Below are positions 33,479 through 44,390 of a stretch of 64,000 nt of DNA, one piece after another. The position numbers were made by a program, and so were the translations under genes. The stretch comes from Luteibacter jiangsuensis (GTDB taxonomy: Bacteria > Pseudomonadota > Gammaproteobacteria > Xanthomonadales > Rhodanobacteraceae), in the NCBI RefSeq assembly GCF_011742555.1, contig NZ_JAAQQR010000003.1, forward strand, positions 372,001-436,000, written 5' to 3'. The stretch's first letter is position 1, and every line of letters starts with the position of its first letter. The notes beneath the pieces are model-generated. The model saw nothing but the letters and a program-made list of their open reading frames with translations, was not told the origin of the DNA and searched no databases.

Positions 33479-36103
33479 ATGAAGATCCACACCTCGCCGG
33501 CGGCCATGGCTGCCAAGACACCCACCATCGCAAGCGCGGACGCCTACCGTCCGGCGGACGAACTGCTGCGCGCGCTCGACACGCGTCCCGACGGCCTGGA
33601 CGAAGCCGCGATCGCGGAACGCCTGGACCGCGACGGCGTCAACGAAGTGGGCCACGAGAAACCGCCGCACTGGTCGGTGCAGCTGCTGCGTGCGTTCCGC
33701 AGCCCGTTCATCGTGGTCCTGCTTGCCCTCGCGGTGGTGCAACTCTTCACCGAGCCCGACGACTACACCGGTCCGATCATCATCGCCGCGATGGTCGGCA
33801 TCAGCGTGGTGCTGTCGTTCACCCAGGAATTCCGCTCGTCGCGTGCTGCCGAAGCGCTGAAGGCGATGGTGCGCAACACTGCCACCGTGACGCGCCGTGC
33901 CGACGACGGTCACGCCGAGCGCATCGAGGTCCCGGTGGAGGAGCTTGTCGCGGGCGATATCGTGCACCTCGGCGCGGGCGACATGGTGCCCGCTGACCTC
34001 CGCCTGCTTGCTGCGAAAGACCTGTTCATCAGCCAGGCGATCCTCACGGGCGAATCCATTCCCGTGGAGAAGTCGGCCCCGAACGGAACGACGGCCGCCG
34101 GGAACGCCGGCCCGCTGGACCTTCCGACGGTGTGCTACATGGGCACGAACGTGGTGTCCGGCACCGCGACCGCGGTGGTGCTCGCCACCGGAGCGCGCAC
34201 CTACCTCGGTTCGCTGGCCCGCACGCTTTCCGGCGAACGCGTACAGACCAGCTTCGACCGCGGAATCGCCTCCGTGAGCTGGCTGCTGATCCGCTTCATG
34301 GCCGTGATGGTGCCGGTGGTGTTCGTCATCAACGGCATCGACAAGCACGACTGGCTGGAAGCCTTCATGTTCGGCCTCTCGGTTGCCGTCGGCCTCACGC
34401 CGGAGATGCTTCCGCTGATCGTCACCGCCAACCTCGGCAAGGGCGCCATCGCCATGTCGAAGCGCAAGGTGGTGGTGAAGCGCCTGAACGCCATCCAGAA
34501 CTTCGGGGCGATGGACGTGCTGTGCACGGACAAGACCGGCACGCTCACGCTGGACAAGATCGTGCTGGAGCGCCACGTCGACCTCGCCGGCGACGACAGT
34601 GACGAAGCGCTGGAATACGGCTACCTCAACAGCCGCTTCCAGACCGGTCTGCGCAACCTGATGGACAAGGCGGTGCTTGCCCATCGCGATCTGGAGCCGT
34701 CCGCGGGCCGCTACCGCATCGTCGACGAGATTCCGTTCGACTTCCAGCGCCGGCGCATGTCGGTGGTGGTGACGGACGGCCAGGGAGAACAGCTCCTGGT
34801 GTGCAAGGGGGCCGTCGAGGAAATGCTGGCGATCTGCACGCAGGCGCGCACCGGCGATGTCGTCGAGCCCATGACGGAGGAAAAGCGCCTGGCGATCCGC
34901 GCCATGACCAATCGCCTCAACGAGGATGGCCTGCGTGTGCTGATCGTCGCGATCCGGCGCGATCCCTCCGGCGACCGCGCCTATGGCGTGGCCGACGAGT
35001 CCGGCCTCACCGCCGTGGGATGCCTGGCCTTCCTCGATCCTCCGAAAGACTCCGCCGCCACGGCCATCCGAGCGCTGCACCACCACGGCGTGGCCGTGAA
35101 GGTGATCACCGGTGACAACGAGGCCGTCACGCGCAAGATCTGCGTGGAGGTGGGCCTGGACGTGGAAGCGTCCGCACTGGGGCGCGACATCGAGCAACTC
35201 GACGACGCGGCGCTCGACGCCATGGTCGAGCACACCACCGTGTTCGCGAAGATGTCGCCGGTGCAGAAGGCCCGGGTGGTGAAGTCGCTGCAACGGCTGG
35301 GGCACACCGTGGGCTTCCTGGGCGACGGCATCAACGATGCGCCGGCGTTGCGCGACGCCGACGTGGGCATCTCGGTGGACACCGCCACGGATATCGCGAA
35401 GGAGTCGGCGGACATCATCCTGCTGGAAAAGAACCTGACGGTGCTGGAGGAGGGCGTGGTGGAAGGCCGCGTCACCTTCGGCAACATCATGAAGTACATC
35501 AAGATGACCGCCAGCTCGAACTTCGGCAACGTGTTCAGCGTGCTGGTGGCCAGCGCCTTCCTGCCGTTCCTGCCGATGCTGCCGTTGCAGATCCTGGTGC
35601 AGAACCTGCTGTACGACCTGTCGCAGCTTTCGATTCCGTTCGACCGCATGGACGAGGAATACCTGCGTCAACCGCGCAAGTGGGACGCGGGGGACATCGG
35701 CCGCTTCATGGTGTGGATCGGGCCGGTGAGTTCCGTATTCGACATCACCACGTTCTGGCTCATGTGGCACTACTTCGGCGCGAACGACGTGGCGCACCAG
35801 TCGTTGTTCCAGTCCGGCTGGTTCATCGAAGGCCTGCTGTCGCAAACGCTGGTGGTGCACATGATCCGTACGCGGCGCATTCCGTTCCTGCGCAGCATGG
35901 CCTCGGCGCCGGTGCTGGCGCTCACTGGGGCGATCATGCTGGCCGGCATGTTCATTCCGTACTCCGCACTGGGCGCGCGCATCGGCATGCAGCCCTTGCC
36001 CGGCGTCTATTTCGCCTGGCTGGCGCTGACGCTGGTGAGCTACTGCATGCTCACGCAGCTGGTGAAGACGCTCTACATCCGCCGCTACGGGCGCTGGCTG
36101 TAG
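33479..36103 (+). CDS. mgtA: Magnesium-translocating P-type ATPase MgtA
   Basis: 874 residues. P-type ATPase landmarks are in order: the actuator TGES motif in AILTGESIPVEK, membrane helix M4 with VGLTPEMLPLIV, the phosphorylation motif DKTGT (Asp351), KGAVEEML in the nucleotide-binding domain, the hinge GDGINDAPALRDADVG, and C-terminal helices with NLLYDLSQLSIPFD, characteristic of the MgtA/MgtB (P3B) group. It imports Mg2+ across the inner membrane. It has a long leader with several short ORFs and hairpins, the usual place for Mg2+ control of this gene. Confidence 0.96.
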   Translation: MKIHTSPAAMAAKTPTIASADAYRPADELLRALDTRPDGLDEAAIAERLDRDGVNEVGHEKPPHWSVQLLRAFRSPFIVVLLALAVVQLFTEPDDYTGPIIIAAMVGISVVLSFTQEFRSSRAAEALKAMVRNTATVTRRADDGHAERIEVPVEELVAGDIVHLGAGDMVPADLRLLAAKDLFISQAILTGESIPVEKSAPNGTTAAGNAGPLDLPTVCYMGTNVVSGTATAVVLATGARTYLGSLARTLSGERVQTSFDRGIASVSWLLIRFMAVMVPVVFVINGIDKHDWLEAFMFGLSVAVGLTPEMLPLIVTANLGKGAIAMSKRKVVVKRLNAIQNFGAMDVLCTDKTGTLTLDKIVLERHVDLAGDDSDEALEYGYLNSRFQTGLRNLMDKAVLAHRDLEPSAGRYRIVDEIPFDFQRRRMSVVVTDGQGEQLLVCKGAVEEMLAICTQARTGDVVEPMTEEKRLAIRAMTNRLNEDGLRVLIVAIRRDPSGDRAYGVADESGLTAVGCLAFLDPPKDSAATAIRALHHHGVAVKVITGDNEAVTRKICVEVGLDVEASALGRDIEQLDDAALDAMVEHTTVFAKMSPVQKARVVKSLQRLGHTVGFLGDGINDAPALRDADVGISVDTATDIAKESADIILLEKNLTVLEEGVVEGRVTFGNIMKYIKMTASSNFGNVFSVLVASAFLPFLPMLPLQILVQNLLYDLSQLSIPFDRMDEEYLRQPRKWDAGDIGRFMVWIGPVSSVFDITTFWLMWHYFGANDVAHQSLFQSGWFIEGLLSQTLVVHMIRTRRIPFLRSMASAPVLALTGAIMLAGMFIPYSALGARIGMQPLPGVYFAWLALTLVSYCMLTQLVKTLYIRRYGRWL

Positions 36104-36197
36104 CGCCTATCGCTACGGCCTTGCGTGGGCGGGAGGGGACAGACGCGATGTGGCGGAAGGGAGTTCCATACGCGCTCCCTTTGCTGGAGACACCGCC

Positions 36198-36683
36198 ATG
36201 CGCCATGCCTTTCTTGCTATTGCCTCGTTGGTCTTCCCCGCCGCCTGCCTCGCGCATGCTGCGGGGAACATGCCCCCGCGCTACGTCGATGCGATCGATT
36301 GGCCCACGAAGGAAGCGGGCCTGGAGAAGTTCGCGCTCGCCGAGCATATGCTCTCGTTGAGCTTCGAGAGGTTCTGCGGCGACGCATTCTGCGAGGGTCC
36401 GTATCCGAACCTTCGGCCCATGCAGCTGAGCTGCTCGGTGGACACGTCGAATGGGACCATCAAGCGCTGCCTCTGGATCTTCGCAGGCAGCGACACGTCG
36501 GTGGATGCTTCCAGCGGCGCCGTGCGGTCGTCGGCCAAGGTCTACAAATGCAACCTCCGGCTCGCGCGGAACACCCCGGTCGACGTGTTCTACGAAGCGA
36601 TGAACGACGGCGAGCTGCTCGGCAAGAAGCTGCCGATGACGCGCCATACGGTGTACGACAGCTTGGTCGGCTGTCTTCCGTGA
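36198..36683 (+). CDS. Secreted Cys-rich protein, tandem paralogue 1
   Basis: 161 residues with a signal peptide ending LAHA. The mature part has six conserved Cys shared with the next gene: in RFCGDAFCEGPYPNLRPM, LSCSVD, IKRCLWIF, VYKCNLRL and LVGCLP. GGAG lies before the ATG. Residue pairing suggests three disulfides in the periplasm. The gene and its upstream region (CATACG-GCTCC and GGAGACA) are duplicated at 36777-37268. The family is not recognised; the neighbour mgtA gives no clear link. Confidence 0.8.
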   Translation: MRHAFLAIASLVFPAACLAHAAGNMPPRYVDAIDWPTKEAGLEKFALAEHMLSLSFERFCGDAFCEGPYPNLRPMQLSCSVDTSNGTIKRCLWIFAGSDTSVDASSGAVRSSAKVYKCNLRLARNTPVDVFYEAMNDGELLGKKLPMTRHTVYDSLVGCLP

Positions 36684-36776
36684 TGCAACGGACTACAAGG
36701 TTCCGTGGGCCGCGGCGAGCAGACCCGCGCAAGCATTGAGGGTTTCATACGTGCTCCTTTCAACGGAGACAAACGC

Positions 36777-37268
36777 ATGATCCGAAAGACCCTCGCCGCC
36801 AGCCTGTTCGCCGTCACCGCCGCCGGCTTCGCCGGCACTGCCTTCGCGGCGGAACCCATCGCCGAGCGTTACGTCGACGCCTCCAACTGGCCGGCCCACG
36901 AGGCGGGTATCGAACGATTCGCGAATGCGGAGGCCAAGCTTGTCGCGGGCTTCAATCGCATCTGCGGCGACACGTTCTGTGAAGGCGAATTCGCCAACCT
37001 TCGTCCAATGGAACTGCGCTGCTCGGTAGACGTCACGAAGTCCACGCTGAAGCAGTGCCTGTGGACATTCTCGGGCAGCAGTTCCACCGTCAACAAGAAA
37101 ACCGGCGCGGTGACCACCAGCGCCCGGCTGTTCAAGTGCAAGCTCATGCTCGCCAAGAACACGCCGATCGAATCCTTCTACGAGGTGGTGGACGGCGAAG
37201 ACCCGCTCGATGCGAAGCTTCCGATGTCGCGTCACTCCGTGTACGACAGCATCAACGGCTGCCTGTAA
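36777..37268 (+). CDS. Secreted Cys-rich protein, tandem paralogue 2
   Basis: 163 residues with a typical signal peptide (about 1-23, FAGTAFAAEP). It shares with its upstream neighbour the framework RYVDA-(I/S)-W-EAG-E-FA-AE, CGD-FCEG, NLRPM, CSVD, CLW-F-GS and (M/T)RH-VYDS-GCL, i.e. all six cysteines are kept. GGAGACA precedes the ATG. The two copies differ at about half of the positions, so the duplication is old and both are maintained. The function is unknown. Confidence 0.82.
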   Translation: MIRKTLAASLFAVTAAGFAGTAFAAEPIAERYVDASNWPAHEAGIERFANAEAKLVAGFNRICGDTFCEGEFANLRPMELRCSVDVTKSTLKQCLWTFSGSSSTVNKKTGAVTTSARLFKCKLMLAKNTPIESFYEVVDGEDPLDAKLPMSRHSVYDSINGCL

Positions 37269-37275
37269 CGCGTCG

Positions 37276-37302
37276 GCCGGGCCTTCCTCTGGAAGGCCCG
37301 GC
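37276..37302. terminator. Bidirectional hairpin between convergent genes
   Basis: A perfect 12-bp stem GCCGGGCCTTCC / GGAAGGCCCGGC with a TCT loop lies 7 nt after the paralogue-2 stop and 11 nt from the GGDEF gene stop. No T-run is present on either side, so termination strength is uncertain, but the position between convergent stops is typical. Confidence 0.55.
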
Positions 37303-37313
37303 ACAGGTCCATC

Positions 37314-39143
37314 TCAGGACCGGGCCAGCCCGAGCGGCTTCGACGCCAGGGGCGCCACCGGTGCCCGCGCTTTCCCGGCGCCGGAATGCGCCACGGCCAC
37401 CACCACGCGGTCGCGCCCGGCCGATTTACCTTCGTAAAGCGCCTCGTCGGCGACCACGAGCAGGCGGTCGAGGTCGGCGCCATGGCGCCGCGTGCAAGCC
37501 ACGCCGAAGCTCGCCGTCACCCTTGCGCTCGAAGGTCCCCCGGCGGGAGGCGCGGCGATGGCGGCGCGGATCAGTTCCGCGCGTTTCATTCCGTCGGCCT
37601 CGTCGACGCCGGGCAACAGGATCGCGAACTCCTCGCCGCCGAGGCGGCCGAACACGTCGTCCTGAAGCAAGTGATCGCGGCATTCCGCGACCACGCGCAA
37701 CAGCACCCAGTCGCCTTCCGAATGGCCATAGGTATCGTTCACCAGCTTGAAATGGTCCAGGTCGAACAGGATCAGGCATGAGGCCCTGCCTGCCTTGTGG
37801 GAAGCCAGCAATACCTGCTGAGCCCGTTCCACGAAGTGCTGACGATTGCAGATGCCGGTGAGGCTGTCGCGGCGTGCCATGCGCATGAAGCGCAACTGCG
37901 CGCGTTTGGTGCGAATCAACCACAGCGCAATGGTGCCGGCCACCGTCAGCAGCAGCACGATGTAGAGCCGGCTCGTCTCGATGGACCGCCTGTCCACCTC
38001 GCGTTGCAGGTGGAGGATCTGGTTCTGTCTGTCCAGGACATCGGCCTCCATGCGGCTGGACACGACCTGCTGCTTCACCATCTGATAGGCGAGGGCACGC
38101 GCGCTCACGTCGTCGAGGTACCCCTTGTCCGCTTGCATGTAGCGTTCGAGCCACTGGGTCGCGGACTGGAAGTCGCCCTGTTTCCTCGCGATGAGGTAAA
38201 GGGTGCGCAGAGCCACCGCGAGCGGTTCGGAGTACTCGCCGCCAGGTGCGCTCTTCACCGCGGCACTGGCATATTTGCCCGCGGCATCGGTGTTGTTTTC
38301 GTTCCAGTAGGCCTGCGCGAGCAGCGATTCCACCTGCGAGGCCAGGCTGGGATAGCCATAGCGAAGCACCTCGGCGTAGTGCGATTCCAGGACGTGAATG
38401 GCATCGCGTGGCCGCCCGTTGCGAATGGCGGTATCCGCCACGTCGGCGCGCAGCGCGTTCGCGATGAGGTTTTCCCCGGCGGCCTGGCAATCGGCGATGC
38501 CTCGCGCGTAGCGGTCGTCGGTTCCATCGATCCGCTTGCCGCGGAACATGGCGTGCAGCTTGATGAATGTACCCTTGCATGCGCTGTCGCCGGCCGGGGT
38601 GCTTTGGATCATGCGTTCCGCGTAATCGGCGGCGAGGTCGTACTGCCCGGCCGTTGCGAGCATCTGCGCGGCCTCGCCAAGGCCCTGGAGGCGCGCCTGG
38701 GGATCGGTGACCGCGGGAAGCATGTCCGTCAGTTCCGTCAGGCGGGAAAACGCTTCCTGGTAACGATGGCCGATGCCGAGGATGTTGATCAGTGTCGCCG
38801 TGGCGCGAAACCGCAGCACCTTGTCCGGCGAACTGCCGGCGACGGTCTCCAGCAGGGGCGTGGCCGCATCGTAGTCGCCGGCGTAGGCTACCTGCCAGGC
38901 TTCCAGGTACTGGAGGTGGGCTCGCTGCTTTTCGGTCAGTCGCGTCGAATCGTTTTCCAGCCGCACCAGGGTGTCGACGAACTTCTGGTGGTCGGAAGTC
39001 TTGGTGAGGTCGGCCCGGGCGAGGGTCGCGGTTGCGTCCTCGCCCGGTTGCAACTGCGCGAACGCGACGGCGGCATGGCCGCACAGGGCAAGCAGCGCGA
39101 CGAACGGCCGGCAGCAGCGTCCGATGCGGCGTGCCATCTCCAT
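37314..39143 (-). CDS. TPR-sensor diguanylate cyclase (GGDEF)
   Basis: 609 residues: signal peptide (about 1-29), a long periplasmic helical-repeat (TPR-like) region to about 390, a coiled coil (VLDRQNQILHLQREVDRRS), one membrane helix (about 405-422), and a GGDEF domain (about 440-590). The active site is GGEEF and DLDHFKLVNDTYGH is intact, so cyclic-di-GMP synthesis is expected. The usual inhibitory I-site RxxD is replaced (LLQDDVF before GRLGGEEF), so product inhibition may be lost. The start lies 11 nt after the borosin precursor stop, suggesting co-transcription. Confidence 0.92.
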   Translation of the reverse strand: MEMARRIGRCCRPFVALLALCGHAAVAFAQLQPGEDATATLARADLTKTSDHQKFVDTLVRLENDSTRLTEKQRAHLQYLEAWQVAYAGDYDAATPLLETVAGSSPDKVLRFRATATLINILGIGHRYQEAFSRLTELTDMLPAVTDPQARLQGLGEAAQMLATAGQYDLAADYAERMIQSTPAGDSACKGTFIKLHAMFRGKRIDGTDDRYARGIADCQAAGENLIANALRADVADTAIRNGRPRDAIHVLESHYAEVLRYGYPSLASQVESLLAQAYWNENNTDAAGKYASAAVKSAPGGEYSEPLAVALRTLYLIARKQGDFQSATQWLERYMQADKGYLDDVSARALAYQMVKQQVVSSRMEADVLDRQNQILHLQREVDRRSIETSRLYIVLLLTVAGTIALWLIRTKRAQLRFMRMARRDSLTGICNRQHFVERAQQVLLASHKAGRASCLILFDLDHFKLVNDTYGHSEGDWVLLRVVAECRDHLLQDDVFGRLGGEEFAILLPGVDEADGMKRAELIRAAIAAPPAGGPSSARVTASFGVACTRRHGADLDRLLVVADEALYEGKSAGRDRVVVAVAHSGAGKARAPVAPLASKPLGLARS

Positions 39144-39154
39144 CGCGAAGCGCC

Positions 39155-39421
39155 TTACGCCCTGCGTTGTGCGAAACGGACGGACGACTCTTCGTCGCCG
39201 TCGTCCTGCTCCTCGGGCTCATCCTGATCGAGCTGGATGCCAAAGAACTTGCCGGGCGCGAGTCGGTCGCGCAGCGCGGCGTCATCGCCGGCCAGGATGG
39301 CGGCAGCGAGCGTGGGCTCGACGTCGGAAGCGGTCAATGCGTTGGCCAGGTCGGCCTTGCCGGAGGTGCGCAGCGTGGCGCTGGCGCCCATGCGCGCAAG
39401 AAAATCGATGATGTTCGACAT
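39155..39421 (-). CDS. Split-borosin precursor peptide
   Basis: 88 residues. The N-terminal 55 residues resemble the borosin-binding (leader) domain of split borosin precursors: MSNIIDFLARMGASATLR, a second helix, then AAAILAGDDAALRDRL. The C-terminal part, APGKFFGIQLDQDEPEEQDD and an acidic/Arg tail, is the probable core, with the hydrophobic FFGIQL stretch as the likely N-methylation site. GGGGAA precedes the ATG at 39421. The partner methyltransferase gene lies 97 nt upstream on the same strand. The core sequence assignment is inference from the SonA-type arrangement. Confidence 0.8.
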   Translation of the reverse strand: MSNIIDFLARMGASATLRTSGKADLANALTASDVEPTLAAAILAGDDAALRDRLAPGKFFGIQLDQDEPEEQDDGDEESSVRFAQRRA

Positions 39422-39518
39422 GTGTTCCCCTGATTGATGGCGCCGTGTACCTCCCCAGGTGCACGTACGCAGCCCGATCATAGCGCGACCCAGGCGGCCA
39501 CCTGTTAAGTGTCCCGAT

Positions 39519-40319
39519 TCAGGTTTGTGTATTGAGCGCGGCCAGCCGTTCGCGAACGATCGGGTCGGGCTCCAGGGCGCGGCAGGGCGGTACCGCCAGC
39601 GTGTCGGACATCCCCAGCGCGATCCGTGGCAGCTCGGCCAGCGGCAGGCGCTCGATGCGCGGCTCCTGGAAGGGAAGCGTGGCGGCGCGATAGACCGCCA
39701 CCTCGTGCGTTTCCGGGTAGTGACGGGCGAGCACCTCCACAAGCAGCGCGAGGCGGGCCGGGTCGGTCTCGAAGCGTCCGCCGCTGAGATCGCCGGCAAT
39801 GCCCACCTGCCAAAGGATCAGCCACGCGGACGGATCAACGATGCGCCGGTTGAGCATGAATTGCGTGGCCTCGAAGTGTTGGCATCCGACCCGGCCCGGG
39901 TCGATTCCGAGGTCGGCATACAGGCAATCCTCCGATGACACGCCCGGTTCCATGCGCGCGGCATAGCCTTCCTCGCGGGCACGTGCTATCGCCTCGTGGG
40001 GCGCCTGGGCGAACACGCCCGGGTGACCGTAAAACACGCCGCAAACCTTCCGGCCGGCCCGGACCTCGGCAAGCATGGTATCGACCATCTCGCGATAGGT
40101 GGCCTGCCGCGGCTTGTCGTCGGCATAGAAGCCTTGCAGGCTGCGAACGTCGGCGTGCATCTGCCGCACCCATTGCTCCACGAGACCGTCCGATACGGCA
40201 ACGAACACCACGTCGGCCGATTCGATGTGGCTCCGCGCCAGGGGCGTGAGATGGGAACCCAGGGTCATTCCCACACCCACACAGGCGAGCGAGCCGGGTG
40301 CCGCTTCCGTCATTGCCAT
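39519..40319 (-). CDS. Borosin-type peptide backbone alpha-N-methyltransferase (SonM-like)
   Basis: 266 residues of the tetrapyrrole-methylase fold. The SAM motif is GSLACVGVGMTLGSHLTPLARSHIESAD; signature blocks of split-borosin enzymes follow: GFYADDKPRQATYREMV (catalytic-type Tyr65, Arg71, Tyr75), FYGHPGVFA (Tyr97), ARMEPGVSSEDCLYADLGIDPG, FEATQFML, LILWQVGIAGD and PRIERLPLAELP. These match the Shewanella SonM type. In this family the enzyme methylates backbone amides of a separate precursor, here the 88-residue protein encoded downstream. It is not fused to its substrate, unlike the fungal OphMA. Confidence 0.9.
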   Translation of the reverse strand: MAMTEAAPGSLACVGVGMTLGSHLTPLARSHIESADVVFVAVSDGLVEQWVRQMHADVRSLQGFYADDKPRQATYREMVDTMLAEVRAGRKVCGVFYGHPGVFAQAPHEAIARAREEGYAARMEPGVSSEDCLYADLGIDPGRVGCQHFEATQFMLNRRIVDPSAWLILWQVGIAGDLSGGRFETDPARLALLVEVLARHYPETHEVAVYRAATLPFQEPRIERLPLAELPRIALGMSDTLAVPPCRALEPDPIVRERLAALNTQT

Positions 40320-40455
40320 GTATCCCGTTATTCGTGTGGGAGCATCTTACCGGCCGCGATGCGACAGGCGCATTGCCCGCAAATCGCCACGAGCCGCGCC
40401 GCGGCATGTCCCGCCGATGGCCGAACATCGCGCCACCGACAGGGGGAGGACATCG

Positions 40456-41604
40456 ATGCACAGGACGCCTGGCTTGGACACGCTTCGCGCCATCGCGATC
40501 GTATGGGTGATGTTGTTCCACAGCTATCTGGTCGGCGGGCTGGGCGACGGGTTCGGCGCCCTGGAGCGCTCCGGCTGGATGGGGGTAGACCTGTTCTTCG
40601 TGCTCAGCGGCTACCTGATCGGTTCGCAGGTGATGAAGTCGCTGCGCGACACGGGCCGGATCGACGCCGCCGGTTTCTATCGGCGGCGATGCGTGCGTAT
40701 CCTGCCTGCCTTCTTTGTGGTGTTCGCGATCTATGCCCTCATGCCGGGCTGGCGGGAGACGCCCGGCATGCAGCCGTGGTGGCAGTTCCCGACCTTCACG
40801 TTCAACCTGCTGTTCGACAACAGCGACAACTACGCGTTCTCGCACGTATGGTCGCTGTGCGTCGAAGAACACTTCTATCTCCTGTTCCCGTTCCTCGCTT
40901 TCGTGCTTGCGCGGCGCCCGGCGGCATGGAAGTTCGCCGCCGTGTGTACCGCCGTGGTCGTCGGCGGCATGCTCTTGCGGGCCTGGTTGTGGACGCACGA
41001 GGTGGCGCCCGTCCAGGCGAGCGGCGGGAACGCCGGGCTGGCGTATCTGCGCCACCTCTATTACCCGACATGGTCGCGGCTCGACGGCCTCATGGCCGGG
41101 GTGGCCCTCGCCGCATGTCGGGTATACCGGCCGACGGCCATGGCCTGGATGCAGGCACGGGTCACCACGGTGCTGGCGGTCGGATCGGTTCTCCTGATCG
41201 GATCGCTCGTACTGTTCGACGGCGCCCGCACGGCGTTCTGGCCCTGCGTGATCGGCTATCCGCTGCTCTCGCTGGCGCTGGCCGCCTTCGTGGTGGCGGC
41301 CAGCGGTTCCACCTGGCTGGCGCGCCTCGACATTCCCGGTGCCGGCTGGCTTGCGCGTGCTTCCTATAGTCTCTATCTGAGCCACAAGCTGGCCTTCGCC
41401 ATGGTGGAGAGACATCTGGACGGCTATCTGGCAGACCATCGCTACCTGCGCTTCGCCATCTTCGCCGTCGCGATCCTCGCCGTTGGCGCCCTGCTGCACT
41501 ACGCCGTGGAGCGCCCCTTCCTCCGTTGGCGTGACCGTCGTGGCCCGGCTTCGGCTACACTGTCGCCGCCCAAGGTGATCCAAGGCGTCAGCGCCGCGGA
41601 TTGA
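40456..41604 (+). CDS. Membrane acyltransferase (Acyltransferase_3/OafA family)
   Basis: 382 residues from ATG 40456 behind GGGGGAGG. About ten membrane helices are visible. The family motifs are LDTLRAIAIVWVMLFHSY (catalytic His) and GVDLFFVLSGYLIGSQV, with FYRRRCVRILPAFF. Such proteins O-acylate surface polysaccharides or lipids. It is divergent from the borosin methyltransferase (136-nt spacer) and its last codons overlap the 5' end of the cobalamin riboswitch. The substrate is unknown. Confidence 0.9.
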   Translation: MHRTPGLDTLRAIAIVWVMLFHSYLVGGLGDGFGALERSGWMGVDLFFVLSGYLIGSQVMKSLRDTGRIDAAGFYRRRCVRILPAFFVVFAIYALMPGWRETPGMQPWWQFPTFTFNLLFDNSDNYAFSHVWSLCVEEHFYLLFPFLAFVLARRPAAWKFAAVCTAVVVGGMLLRAWLWTHEVAPVQASGGNAGLAYLRHLYYPTWSRLDGLMAGVALAACRVYRPTAMAWMQARVTTVLAVGSVLLIGSLVLFDGARTAFWPCVIGYPLLSLALAAFVVAASGSTWLARLDIPGAGWLARASYSLYLSHKLAFAMVERHLDGYLADHRYLRFAIFAVAILAVGALLHYAVERPFLRWRDRRGPASATLSPPKVIQGVSAAD

Positions 41605-41785
41605 AACGGGAATCCGGTGACGCGCGCGGTCTCCACGCCGCCGCCATTCCGGAGCTGCCCCCGCAACGGTAGGCGAGCAAGAGGTCGGCATCCAGCCACT
41701 GTGCCCACGAGGCATGGGAAGGCGCCGTCCGGCAGGCAACCCCTGCGCTCGCAAGCCCGGAGACCGGCCTCGAGGTACACCGGAC
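41572..41785 (+). ncRNA. Cobalamin (B12) riboswitch
   Basis: Conserved elements appear in order: GGTGATCC-rich P1/P2 start, GAAACGGGAATCCGGTG (41603-41618), the B12 box GAGCTGCCCCCGCAACGGTA (41652-41671), AGCCACTG, TGGGAAGGCG and the closing AAGCCCGGAGACCGGCC (to 41768). It lies upstream of a TonB-dependent receptor and the cob genes, which it should repress when adenosylcobalamin is abundant. Its first ~33 nt overlap the acyltransferase coding end. Exact 5' and 3' borders are approximate. Confidence 0.95.
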
Positions 41786-41905
41786 AGGCGGAGGGCCATG
41801 TCGTGGGTGGCCGTCGCCTCTCGCCGCCGGCATCCCGCGTTTCCCTGCACCCGTCCCTCGCCATTCATGCCGCGCGGGTTGGCGCGGTCAGCAGGGAGTC
41901 ACCAC

Positions 41906-43783
41906 GTGTCGTTTCGTTCTTCCACCCTCGCGCTCGCTATCGCGACGGGTTTCCTCGTGCCCGCCGTGTCGTTCGCGGACGGGGCTTCCACCGACATGGA
42001 TTCGGTCGTCGTCACCGCCAGCCGCACCGAGCGGTCGCTGAACCAGGTGCTGGCGGCCTCCACGGTGCTCGATCGCGCCGACATCGAGCGCTTGCAGCCG
42101 CGCTCGCTCGCCGACCTGCTGGGCAGCACGCCCGGCGTGTCGATCGCCAACAACGGTGGCCCGGGCAAGGCGACCTCCGTGTTCATGCGCGGGACCGAAG
42201 CGGACCACGTGCTGGTGCTGGTGGATGGCGTGAAGGTCGGATCGGCCACGTCCGGCACCGCCGCCTTCCAGGACATTCCTGTCGACCAGATCGAGCGCAT
42301 CGAGATCGTGCGTGGTCCGTACTCGAGCCTGTACGGCTCCGACGCCCTCGGTGGCGTCATCCAGATATTCACGCGCCATCCCGAAGGTGCCTTCGTGCCG
42401 AATGCCTCCATCGGCGTGGGCAGCTACGACACCTTGCGCGGTTCCGCCGGATTCGCGGGCCGCGGCACACAGGGCTGGTACTCGGTGGAGGCCAGCCACG
42501 ACCAGACCGACGGGATCAACGCCTGTCGCGGCAAGCCCAGCCCGCGCGGCGGCGGTTGCTTCACCTATGAGCCCGACAAGGACGGCTACCGTAACAACGC
42601 CTTGTCCCTGAAGGGCGGCTGGCGTTTCGACGAGCAATGGGACGCCGACGCGACGGCCACGCGCACCGAAGGCCGCAACCATTACGACGGTACCAGCAGC
42701 AACTTCGCGGAGTCGGCGACGCAGGTGCTTGGGGGCCGCTTGCGCTACAGGCCGGCCAGGGACGTCGTGGTCACGGCCAACGTAGGCCGCAGCGAAGACC
42801 TCTCCACCGATTACGAGGACGGCACCTACGCCGATACGTTCAACACGCATCGCGACGTGGCGTCATTGCAGGCGGACATCGGCCGTGTGTCCAGCAACAC
42901 CGGACTCACCACGCTCGGCTTCGACTGGCAGCGCGATCGCGTGGTCGGCAGCACCGACTACCTCGTCGATGCACGCCGCAACCACGCGCTGTACGCGCAA
43001 TGGCAGGGCGAATTCGGCGACAACTCCGTGCAAGCCAGCCTGCGGCGCGACGAGAACAGCCAGTTCGGCGGCAAGACCACCGGCAGCCTCCAATACGGCT
43101 ACGCCCTGACGAAGACCCTGCGCGTGACCGGCAGCTACGGGACGGCCTTCAAGGCGCCGACGTTCAACGATCTGTATTACCCCGACTACGGCAATCCCGA
43201 GCTCGGTCCCGAAACTTCCCGGAACTGGGAGCTGGGCCTGCGCGGTACGCCGGGCTGGGGCACCTGGTCGGTCAATGCCTTCCAGAACAGGATCGACAAC
43301 CTCATCGTCTTCGACTCGAGCTTGAGCGGACCGCTGTTTCCGTTCGGGGGAGCGAACAACATCGCCCGGTCGCGTATCCGTGGCGTGGAACTGGCGGGTG
43401 ACACGACGCTGGGCGCGTGGCGCCTGTCGGGCAACGCCACGTGGCTGCAACCCGAGGACGAAAGCGACGGCCCCACCGACGGCAACCTGCTGCCGCGTCG
43501 TGCGCGCCGCACGGCACGCTTCGACGCGGACCGCAGCTTCGGTCCGTTGAGCATCGGCGCCAGCGTCTCCGGATTCAGCTATCGCTACGACGATACCGCC
43601 AATGCCAACCGCCTCGGCGGCTACGCCCTCACCGACCTGCGAGCGGCCTACGCCTTCGCCGATGCGTGGAAGGTGGAGCTGTCGGCGAACAACGTGTTCG
43701 ACCGTCACTACGAAACCGCTCGCTACTTCAACCAGCCCGGCCGCAACTGGCTGCTCACGCTGCGCTACCAACCGCGTTCCTGA
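41906..43783 (+). CDS. btuB: TonB-dependent vitamin B12 receptor (BtuB-like)
   Basis: 625 residues from GTG 41906, preceded by AGGGAG, with the signal peptide ending VSFADG. The TonB box region (MDSVVVTASRTERSLN), the plug domain (SLADLLGSTPGVSIANNGGPGKATSVFMRGTEADHVLVLVDGVKVGSAT, IERIEIVRGPYSSLYGSDALGGVIQIFT) and a C-terminal barrel ending LLTLRYQPRS are present. The PGKATSVFMRG-type plug matches BtuB. It should import corrinoids through the outer membrane; the riboswitch upstream and the cob genes downstream support this. An in-frame upstream ATG is less likely. Confidence 0.93.
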   Translation: MSFRSSTLALAIATGFLVPAVSFADGASTDMDSVVVTASRTERSLNQVLAASTVLDRADIERLQPRSLADLLGSTPGVSIANNGGPGKATSVFMRGTEADHVLVLVDGVKVGSATSGTAAFQDIPVDQIERIEIVRGPYSSLYGSDALGGVIQIFTRHPEGAFVPNASIGVGSYDTLRGSAGFAGRGTQGWYSVEASHDQTDGINACRGKPSPRGGGCFTYEPDKDGYRNNALSLKGGWRFDEQWDADATATRTEGRNHYDGTSSNFAESATQVLGGRLRYRPARDVVVTANVGRSEDLSTDYEDGTYADTFNTHRDVASLQADIGRVSSNTGLTTLGFDWQRDRVVGSTDYLVDARRNHALYAQWQGEFGDNSVQASLRRDENSQFGGKTTGSLQYGYALTKTLRVTGSYGTAFKAPTFNDLYYPDYGNPELGPETSRNWELGLRGTPGWGTWSVNAFQNRIDNLIVFDSSLSGPLFPFGGANNIARSRIRGVELAGDTTLGAWRLSGNATWLQPEDESDGPTDGNLLPRRARRTARFDADRSFGPLSIGASVSGFSYRYDDTANANRLGGYALTDLRAAYAFADAWKVELSANNVFDRHYETARYFNQPGRNWLLTLRYQPRS

Positions 43784-43808
43784 TCCACCCACCCTGGGAG
43801 AGTTTGTC

Positions 43809-44390
43809 ATGAAGCCCTTGTCCCGCCCGATGTTCACTGCCGTCGCCGCGATCTTCGCCATGGTCATGATCGCGACCCGCTTCCACCACTTCGGCGATGC
43901 GCTGCATCTGCCGGACGCGTCGATGGCACTGTTCTTCCTGGGCGGCATCTATCTGCGCAAGCATCTCGCCTTCGTGGGCTTTGTCGTCCTCTCGGTGCTG
44001 GTTGACTGGTACTCGATCCGCTATACCGGGGTAAGCGACTTCTGCATCACGATCGCATACTCGTTCATGCCACTCGCGTACTCGGTGCTCTGGTATGCCG
44101 GCCGTTTGGTCGCGCCGCGCTATGACGGAAGCCTGGCATCGCATGTCACCGTGTTTGCCGCCATTCTGGTCGGCGCCACGTTGTCGTACGCCGTGTCGAA
44201 CGGTGCCTTCTACTGGCTGGGCGGACGTTACACCGACCCGAACATGACCCAGTACGTGGAACGATTCGCCCAGTGGGCGCCGTTGTTCGTTCGTGCCGCG
44301 GCGGGCTACGTGCTGGTCGCGCAGGCGATCCAGGCCCTGGTGTTCCGCTTTGCGCCCCGCGCCGGCGACGGCAGGGCCGCACAGGCATGA
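43809..44390 (+). CDS. DUF6580 family membrane protein of B12 operons
   Basis: 193 residues with about five hydrophobic segments (MFTAVAAIFAMVMIATR, SMALFFLGGIYL, LAFVGFVVLSVLVDW, VTVFAAILVGATLSYAV, and a C-terminal one with LFVRAAAGYVLVAQAI). Such proteins resemble the S component of ECF transporters and occur in Xanthomonad B12 operons, so a cobalt or corrinoid transport role is plausible. It starts 25 nt after btuB and overlaps cobO by 4 nt (ATGA). The substrate is inferred from context. Confidence 0.75.
   Translation: MKPLSRPMFTAVAAIFAMVMIATRFHHFGDALHLPDASMALFFLGGIYLRKHLAFVGFVVLSVLVDWYSIRYTGVSDFCITIAYSFMPLAYSVLWYAGRLVAPRYDGSLASHVTVFAAILVGATLSYAVSNGAFYWLGGRYTDPNMTQYVERFAQWAPLFVRAAAGYVLVAQAIQALVFRFAPRAGDGRAAQA

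Follow-up and report, generated by a model that had tools for sequence, protein, structure and literature searches.

A borosin methyltransferase, its precursor and a TPR-sensor diguanylate cyclase form a candidate peptide-signalling unit in Luteibacter jiangsuensis

A 64,000-nucleotide stretch of the Luteibacter jiangsuensis genome (contig NZ_JAAQQR010000003.1, positions 372,001 to 436,000; hereafter the window) contains three consecutive minus-strand genes, for a borosin-type methyltransferase (MT), a split-borosin precursor and a putative diguanylate cyclase (DGC) with a TPR sensor (Table 1). We propose that they make up one unit in which the precursor, or a peptide cut from it, acts on the sensor of the cyclase, a reading to which we assign a probability of about 0.5. 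Sequence comparison and structure prediction support the enzyme family, the borosin-binding domain (BBD) of the precursor, the architecture of the cyclase and the long-conserved linkage of the genes. The MT-precursor pair is an ordinary new member of the known split borosins, and the finding lies in the unit with its receptor-like cyclase rather than in that pair. A first-pass annotation had described the MT and the precursor, and both reading frames, as well as the peptide blocks that it quoted, are present in the sequence as placed. However, it ended one gene early and missed the adjacent TPR-GGDEF gene.

The MT and precursor genes are separated by 97 bases, and the precursor stop codon and the first ATG of the cyclase gene by 11 bases. 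The MT-precursor pair is kept in Luteibacter sp. SG786, the nearest named match, with 94% MT identity. Relative to a strain at 94% MT identity (L071), dN/dS was 0.22 for the MT and 0.13 for the precursor; the corresponding values against a further relative (L072) were 0.13 and 0.35. No sigma-70-like site was returned by a promoter scan of window positions 37000–40700. Likewise, no c-di-GMP riboswitch was found near the operon at Rfam gathering scores in 36000–44000, the sole match there being a cobalamin riboswitch. Next to the operon, on the plus strand, the window holds genes for two tandem secreted-looking proteins of 177 aa (36150–36683) and 187 aa (36705–37268), which are 51% identical over 173 aligned residues and have no Pfam match at E ≤ 0.01.

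Table 1 Features of the three-gene locus, in window coordinates, with the basis of each assignment.
Feature	Position	Strand	Basis
Borosin-type peptide alpha-N-methyltransferase (MT), 266 aa	39519..40319	-	Pfam TP_methylase, PDB SonM, active-site residues
Split-borosin precursor, 88 aa	39155..39421	-	Translation; genus profile matches SonA; structure model
Borosin-binding domain (BBD) of precursor, residues 1-54, five helices (predicted)	39260..39421	-	
Probable core of precursor, residues 58-64, KFFGIQL	39230..39250	-	Position relative to SonA core; genus patterns
Acidic tail of precursor, residues 65-88	39158..39229	-	Acidic-residue counts; dN/dS
TPR-sensor diguanylate cyclase (DGC), 609 aa, third gene	37314..39143	-	Pfam GGDEF, TPR_14; AlphaFold2
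Predicted periplasmic TPR superhelix of cyclase, residues 37-321	38181..39035	-	
Membrane helix of cyclase, residues 392-410	37914..37970	-	Hydropathy
GGDEF domain of cyclase, residues 424-579, motif GGEEF	37407..37874	-	Pfam; motif in sequence

The MT matches Pfam TP_methylase (E = 1.6e-28), and no NCBIfam model scores above its cut-off (best YabN, 1.4e-12). A search of the PDB at E ≤ 0.01 returned 26 sequences, 25 of which are SonM or fungal borosin MTs. SonM gives the best match (E = 5.6e-76) and the fungal enzymes range from 1.2e-51 to 6.8e-46. The matches are thus not limited to cobalamin-type or RsmI methylases, the best non-borosin one, a precorrin-2 C20-methyltransferase, reaching only E = 0.0012. 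Four active-site residues mutated in SonM (Y58, R67, Y71 and Y93; PMC8429565) correspond to Y65, R71, Y75 and Y97 of the window MT and are invariant in 121 of 121 aligned MTs, the window's included. At five further SonM positions, F99, W166 and Q167 are invariant among these 121 MTs, E146 is kept in 117, and E173 is mostly replaced by Asp. By sequence and active-site residues, the 266-aa protein is a SonM-type borosin alpha-N-methyltransferase, as the first-pass annotation had recognized. Its TP_methylase fold and a cobalamin riboswitch at 41556–41786 might place it instead with the nearby cobalamin genes as a methylase of a corrin, but we reject this role as exceedingly improbable given the SonM match (5.6e-76 against 0.0012 for the best corrin methylase), the invariant active-site residues, and a genome that holds only three TP_methylase genes, two of them borosin MTs. 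Three such genes are too few for a corrin ring pathway. The riboswitch (plus strand, 88 bits) lies in front of a TonB-dependent receptor gene; since the genome has only three TP_methylase genes, riboswitch and receptor probably serve salvage rather than corrin-ring synthesis.

The 88-aa neighbour is a split-borosin precursor with a predicted five-helix BBD, which bears out the separate precursor and BBD-like leader of the first-pass annotation. A profile of 31 genus precursors, built without SonA-like rows, has SonA as its best seven PDB matches (E = 2.3e-5 to 8.7e-5), and all 20 among the structural matches listed for the precursor model are SonA, OphMA-type or LigA chains. Behind the BBD, the hydrophobic stretch KFFGIQL falls roughly at the position of the SonA core in an ungapped profile alignment. 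Relatives in the genus carry the core-like patterns FYGIQL, FYSIQL, FYAIQM and FFATQM, and we regard KFFGIQL as the probable core. It is followed by 24 more residues, mostly acidic. This tail had been called strongly acidic and Arg-ended; it is acidic, and Arg-rich near its end, but its last residue is not Arg (...RFAQRRA). Across residues 56–88, dN/dS was 0.09 and 0.29 against two relatives. No signal sequence is apparent on the precursor by eye.

The type IV split borosin SonM-SonA of Shewanella oneidensis likewise has a separate MT and BBD precursor (PMC8429565). The active-site residues and the five-helix leader are alike in the two pairs, the leader being predicted for the window, whereas the 24-residue acidic tail of the window precursor sets it apart from SonA. 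A close SonA relative (L155, E = 7e-26 to SonA) has a homologous TPR-GGDEF gene downstream, as in the window. The words GGDEF, diguanylate and TPR do not appear in the available main text of the SonM paper (PMC8429565).

The third gene encodes a putative membrane sensor that, judging from domain matches and the predicted fold, should make c-di-GMP. From its N terminus, it comprises a hydrophobic stretch, a TPR superhelix, one membrane helix and a GGEEF domain. Pfam GGDEF matches at E = 7.6e-38 and TPR_14 barely above its cut-off, and the AlphaFold2 model (mean pLDDT 90.5, pTM 0.62) is close to many solved cyclases. Of 144 unfused homologues, 143 have a membrane-like segment ahead of GGDEF, but the N-terminal hydrophobic stretch passes the same crude threshold in only 87 of the 144. 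Among 147 homologues the motif is GGEEF in 142 and GGDEF in three, with none found in two. Two sensor cysteines are invariant in 50 aligned rows, and such a pair would fit a periplasmic disulfide.

When the whole cyclase model was compared with VIA-align, all but four of the 50 matches listed were GGDEF chains. Over ~300 residues, the sensor also resembles pheromone-bound phi3T Rap (PDB 8rtc, 8rsv, 8rsu and 8rst), which we take to be a member of the RRNPP peptide-pheromone receptors. The likeness consists in the TPR superhelix, with only 7–8% identity in the structural alignment, and when the sensor sequence was searched against the PDB, no Rap was returned, the sole match being one designed TPR protein. 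Unlike Rap, the window cyclase has an N-terminal hydrophobic stretch, a membrane helix and a GGDEF output. Because TPR superhelices look alike, the resemblance to Rap counts as weak evidence that the sensor binds a peptide, and other TPR families may match the sensor too, the comparison having used the full-length cyclase model. Control of a TPR-GGDEF cyclase through its TPR domain by an operon partner is described in Vibrio vulnificus, where RcbA relieves TPR repression of the DGC RcbB (PMC12282931). RcbA is a TPR protein rather than a peptide precursor, and the available portion of that report names no MT.

In a census starting from the MT, all 23 genus genomes and 162 of the 233 family genomes gave matches at E ≤ 1e-30. 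With the threshold at E ≤ 1e-20, matches came from 204 of 398 genomes sampled across the order and from 15 of 398 sampled across the phylum, 11 of these 15 lying outside the order. Within the 23 genus genomes, 37 of 41 MT genes have a TPR-DGC within 8 kb. We assembled 117 loci: 40 from the genus, 29 from elsewhere in the family, 12 from a second family and 13 from beyond the order, plus 23 taken across the order as a whole, among which are one additional locus of the first family and five additional loci of the second. The genus loci represent all 41 MT matches, two MTs standing in tandem in one locus; loci outside the genus were hand-picked among the matches listed to spread over genera and are not a random sample. 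A profile scan placed the cyclase downstream on the same strand in 98 loci, upstream in five and fused in three, and found none in 11. On a second look, these 11 comprised one divergent cyclase, three TPR sensors on a hybrid histidine kinase and seven loci with neither; 20-kb stretches around four of the seven held no cyclase. A BBD precursor was found in 96 of the 117 loci by a profile that was itself built by iteration on the same loci. Short precursor candidates were seen by eye in 11 of the 21 profile-negative loci and were not counted.

The cyclase still adjoins the MT at 48–59% MT identity outside the order. On the MT tree, a quick tree with long branches, the linked/none label changes four times, with the three fused rows gathered in a single starred group. 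Among ORFs of at least 120 aa, no other neighbour family recurs in more than 11 of the 117 loci, and no export or protease gene recurs; in most loci this test took in 1.5 kb upstream of the MT and ~6 kb downstream. Borosin MTs of other lineages also occur on plasmids; in three of 12 such records (Bradyrhizobium, Azospirillum and Mycetohabitans), whose gene tables are incomplete, no GGDEF gene is annotated within 6 kb of the MT. On the Bradyrhizobium conjugative plasmid p155_2 (L244), the MT lies by a TauD/TfdA-type dioxygenase, a second SAM methyltransferase and a prolyl oligopeptidase, a peptide cluster that looks more classical than the window locus.

Several variants of the arrangement were found. 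Nine ORFs of 829–881 aa (L181–L183 and L247–L252) fuse the TPR sensor, GGDEF and MT, in that order, and all nine have a BBD precursor just upstream; they were chosen for their long open frames, three lying within the 117 loci and six outside. At three further loci (L163, L164 and L165; longer stretches L259 and L257), a short ORF resembling a precursor accompanies the MT, together with a large protein that carries at its N terminus a TPR sensor recognized by the profile of the cyclase sensor. Pfam scans of two of these large proteins found HisKA, HATPase and receiver domains, which makes them hybrid histidine kinases. A separate 545-aa ORF (L185) holds two tandem borosin MT domains and is immediately preceded by a BBD precursor; no cyclase was found there.

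A sensor-domain search of the 23 genus genomes returned 66 genes, of which 41 have an MT within 8 kb and the other 25 do not. Of these 25 orphan TPR-DGC genes, 14 have a BBD precursor right in front; none was found before the other 11, one of which is on a cut contig. The window's genome has 22 GGDEF genes in all. All three of its TPR-DGCs come with a precursor, but an MT accompanies only two; the BBD profile had no matches at the 19 other GGDEF genes (16 stretches) or at the third TP_methylase gene. The closest relative of the window cyclase outside the MT-linked set belongs to an orphan pair (L194), with 75% identity over the sensor, and its precursor keeps the core FYSIQL.

The acidic tail is widespread in the lineage rather than peculiar to the window precursor. 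We compared 150 profile-found precursors: the 110 directly before a cyclase have a median of 12 acidic residues behind the BBD and a median tail length of 41, against 2 and 17 for the 40 that are not. In every one of the 12 scorable loci with several precursors, the DGC-proximal one had the most acidic tail (product of 1/n 3.4e-6), scorable loci being those with exactly one proximal plus further precursors, to the exclusion of loci with at least two proximal precursors or none. Some non-proximal precursors in these loci are mildly acidic, with up to 9 acidic residues. Two genus relatives (L086 and L087) have arrays of 12 and 7 borosin precursors with similar leaders and varied cores; a long acidic tail is found there on the last precursor before the cyclase only.

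Precursors that stand before a cyclase without an acidic tail include the SonA-like, fused-type and proline-tailed ones, one lysine-rich precursor, and those of L147 and L179, so the tail is not needed in every lineage. It is also absent from the precursors that visual inspection revealed beside the three kinases. In L138, a precursor-like protein just before the TPR cyclase gene has a lysine-rich tail (net +16) instead of an acidic one. Tail D and E are near-equal in number (623 and 631), which argues against a purine tract, and with GAC as the commonest acidic codon we do not favour a role of the tail-coding sequence as a purine-rich signal for translation. We also looked for covariation between the charge of the tail and that of the TPR sensor, which would have pointed to direct contact, and found none (rho -0.05 over 110 pairs).

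The cyclase stays beside the peptide gene in many related bacteria, and the peptide may therefore be a signal read by the sensor. We hypothesize that the MT binds the precursor through the BBD and N-methylates the backbone of the hydrophobic segment that follows (FFGIQL). Either the precursor itself or a peptide released from it would then act on the TPR sensor of the cyclase, which is translated next, and so alter c-di-GMP synthesis. The acidic tail would identify the cyclase's own precursor; other precursors of the same clusters, in which this tail is slight or absent, would probably serve elsewhere, and the MT may also serve the orphan precursor-cyclase pairs elsewhere in the genome. Overall, this would amount to a modified-peptide signal with its own receptor. 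Linkage, fusions, orphan pairs, the tail rule, the resemblance to Rap and the RcbA-RcbB precedent count for this reading, to which we give about an even chance. Counting against it are the seven of 117 MT loci that are sensor-less, the 11 of 25 orphan cyclases that are precursor-less, and the absence of charge covariation. It also counts against it that, among ORFs of at least 120 aa, no export or protease gene recurs that might help the precursor to a periplasmic sensor, and that the precursor shows no signal sequence by eye.

We favour direct action of the precursor or peptide on the sensor, at even odds, with two live rivals. The stronger of these, though unlikely in itself, is co-regulation only: the cyclase would sense something else in the periplasm, and c-di-GMP would switch the production or use of the borosin, with an ordinary secreted metabolite as its product, so that the peptide is not the ligand. 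In its favour are the seven MT loci without cyclase or sensor and the lack of covariation between tail and sensor charge, and among ORFs of at least 120 aa no transporter or protease connects peptide and sensor. However, a c-di-GMP switch requires no precursor gene of its own ahead of each cyclase, and 14 of 25 orphan cyclases are paired with a precursor with no MT nearby. Co-regulation also sits poorly with the placement of the most acidic tail on the cyclase-proximal precursor and with the retention of the same sensor with kinase output in three loci.

The less probable of the two is a partnership in the cytoplasm, in which the complete precursor (BBD and tail), with or without methylation, associates with the cyclase or the MT as a protein partner rather than a peptide signal, and the MT may sense the state of the ligand. 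Translation of precursor and cyclase is probably coupled, with a median gap of 10 bases from the precursor to the first possible DGC start, and the nine fused ORFs put the MT behind the GGDEF domain in one assembly that is cytosolic by prediction. A precursor that shows no signal sequence by eye would also be at home there. On the other hand, the conserved sensor is predicted to lie across the membrane, and what unites the cyclase and kinase versions is this sensor rather than the GGDEF domain. Passive synteny, in which the three genes remain together by common descent with no functional link, is very unlikely: all loci are related by descent and the linkage is clustered on the MT tree, with four changes, but other neighbours turn over (none in more than 11 of 117 loci among ORFs of at least 120 aa), the cyclase is adjacent even at 48–59% MT identity outside the order, and fusion, duplicated precursor-cyclase pairs and orphan pairs all speak against it.

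A GGDEF-containing borosin type is already in print, since the legend of Figure 1 in PMC11395268 explains a GGDEF domain in the borosin types drawn, and we do not claim the GGDEF-borosin link as such to be new. The nine fused TPR-GGDEF-MT ORFs may be that type. In the window, by contrast, MT, precursor and cyclase are three genes, and the legend gives no sensor, function or neighbourhood. Our literature search found no work joining borosin with diguanylate cyclase or c-di-GMP, and only PMC11395268 for borosin with GGDEF. Nor did it turn up text on the linkage to a split TPR cyclase, on orphan pairs, on the variant with a kinase or on the tail rule; Imani 2022 and Cho 2022, cited for types V–X, may already cover some of it.

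The 2021 SonM paper (PMC8429565) notes that type IV borosin pathways had yet to be linked to any final natural product. A candidate receptor next to the precursor, over much of the order and beyond, gives the borosin a testable role in the control of c-di-GMP, and the orphan precursor-cyclase pairs and the tail rule yield specific, cheap predictions. Backbone methylation is said to render peptides protease-resistant (PMC8429565), so a borosin would be an unusual peptide signal. More tentatively, and at less than even odds, the loci may represent a family of Gram-negative signalling systems that combine a borosin peptide signal with a Rap-like TPR sensor of exchangeable output (DGC or hybrid histidine kinase), in which one MT would serve several precursor-receptor pairs and an acidic tail would earmark the precursor.
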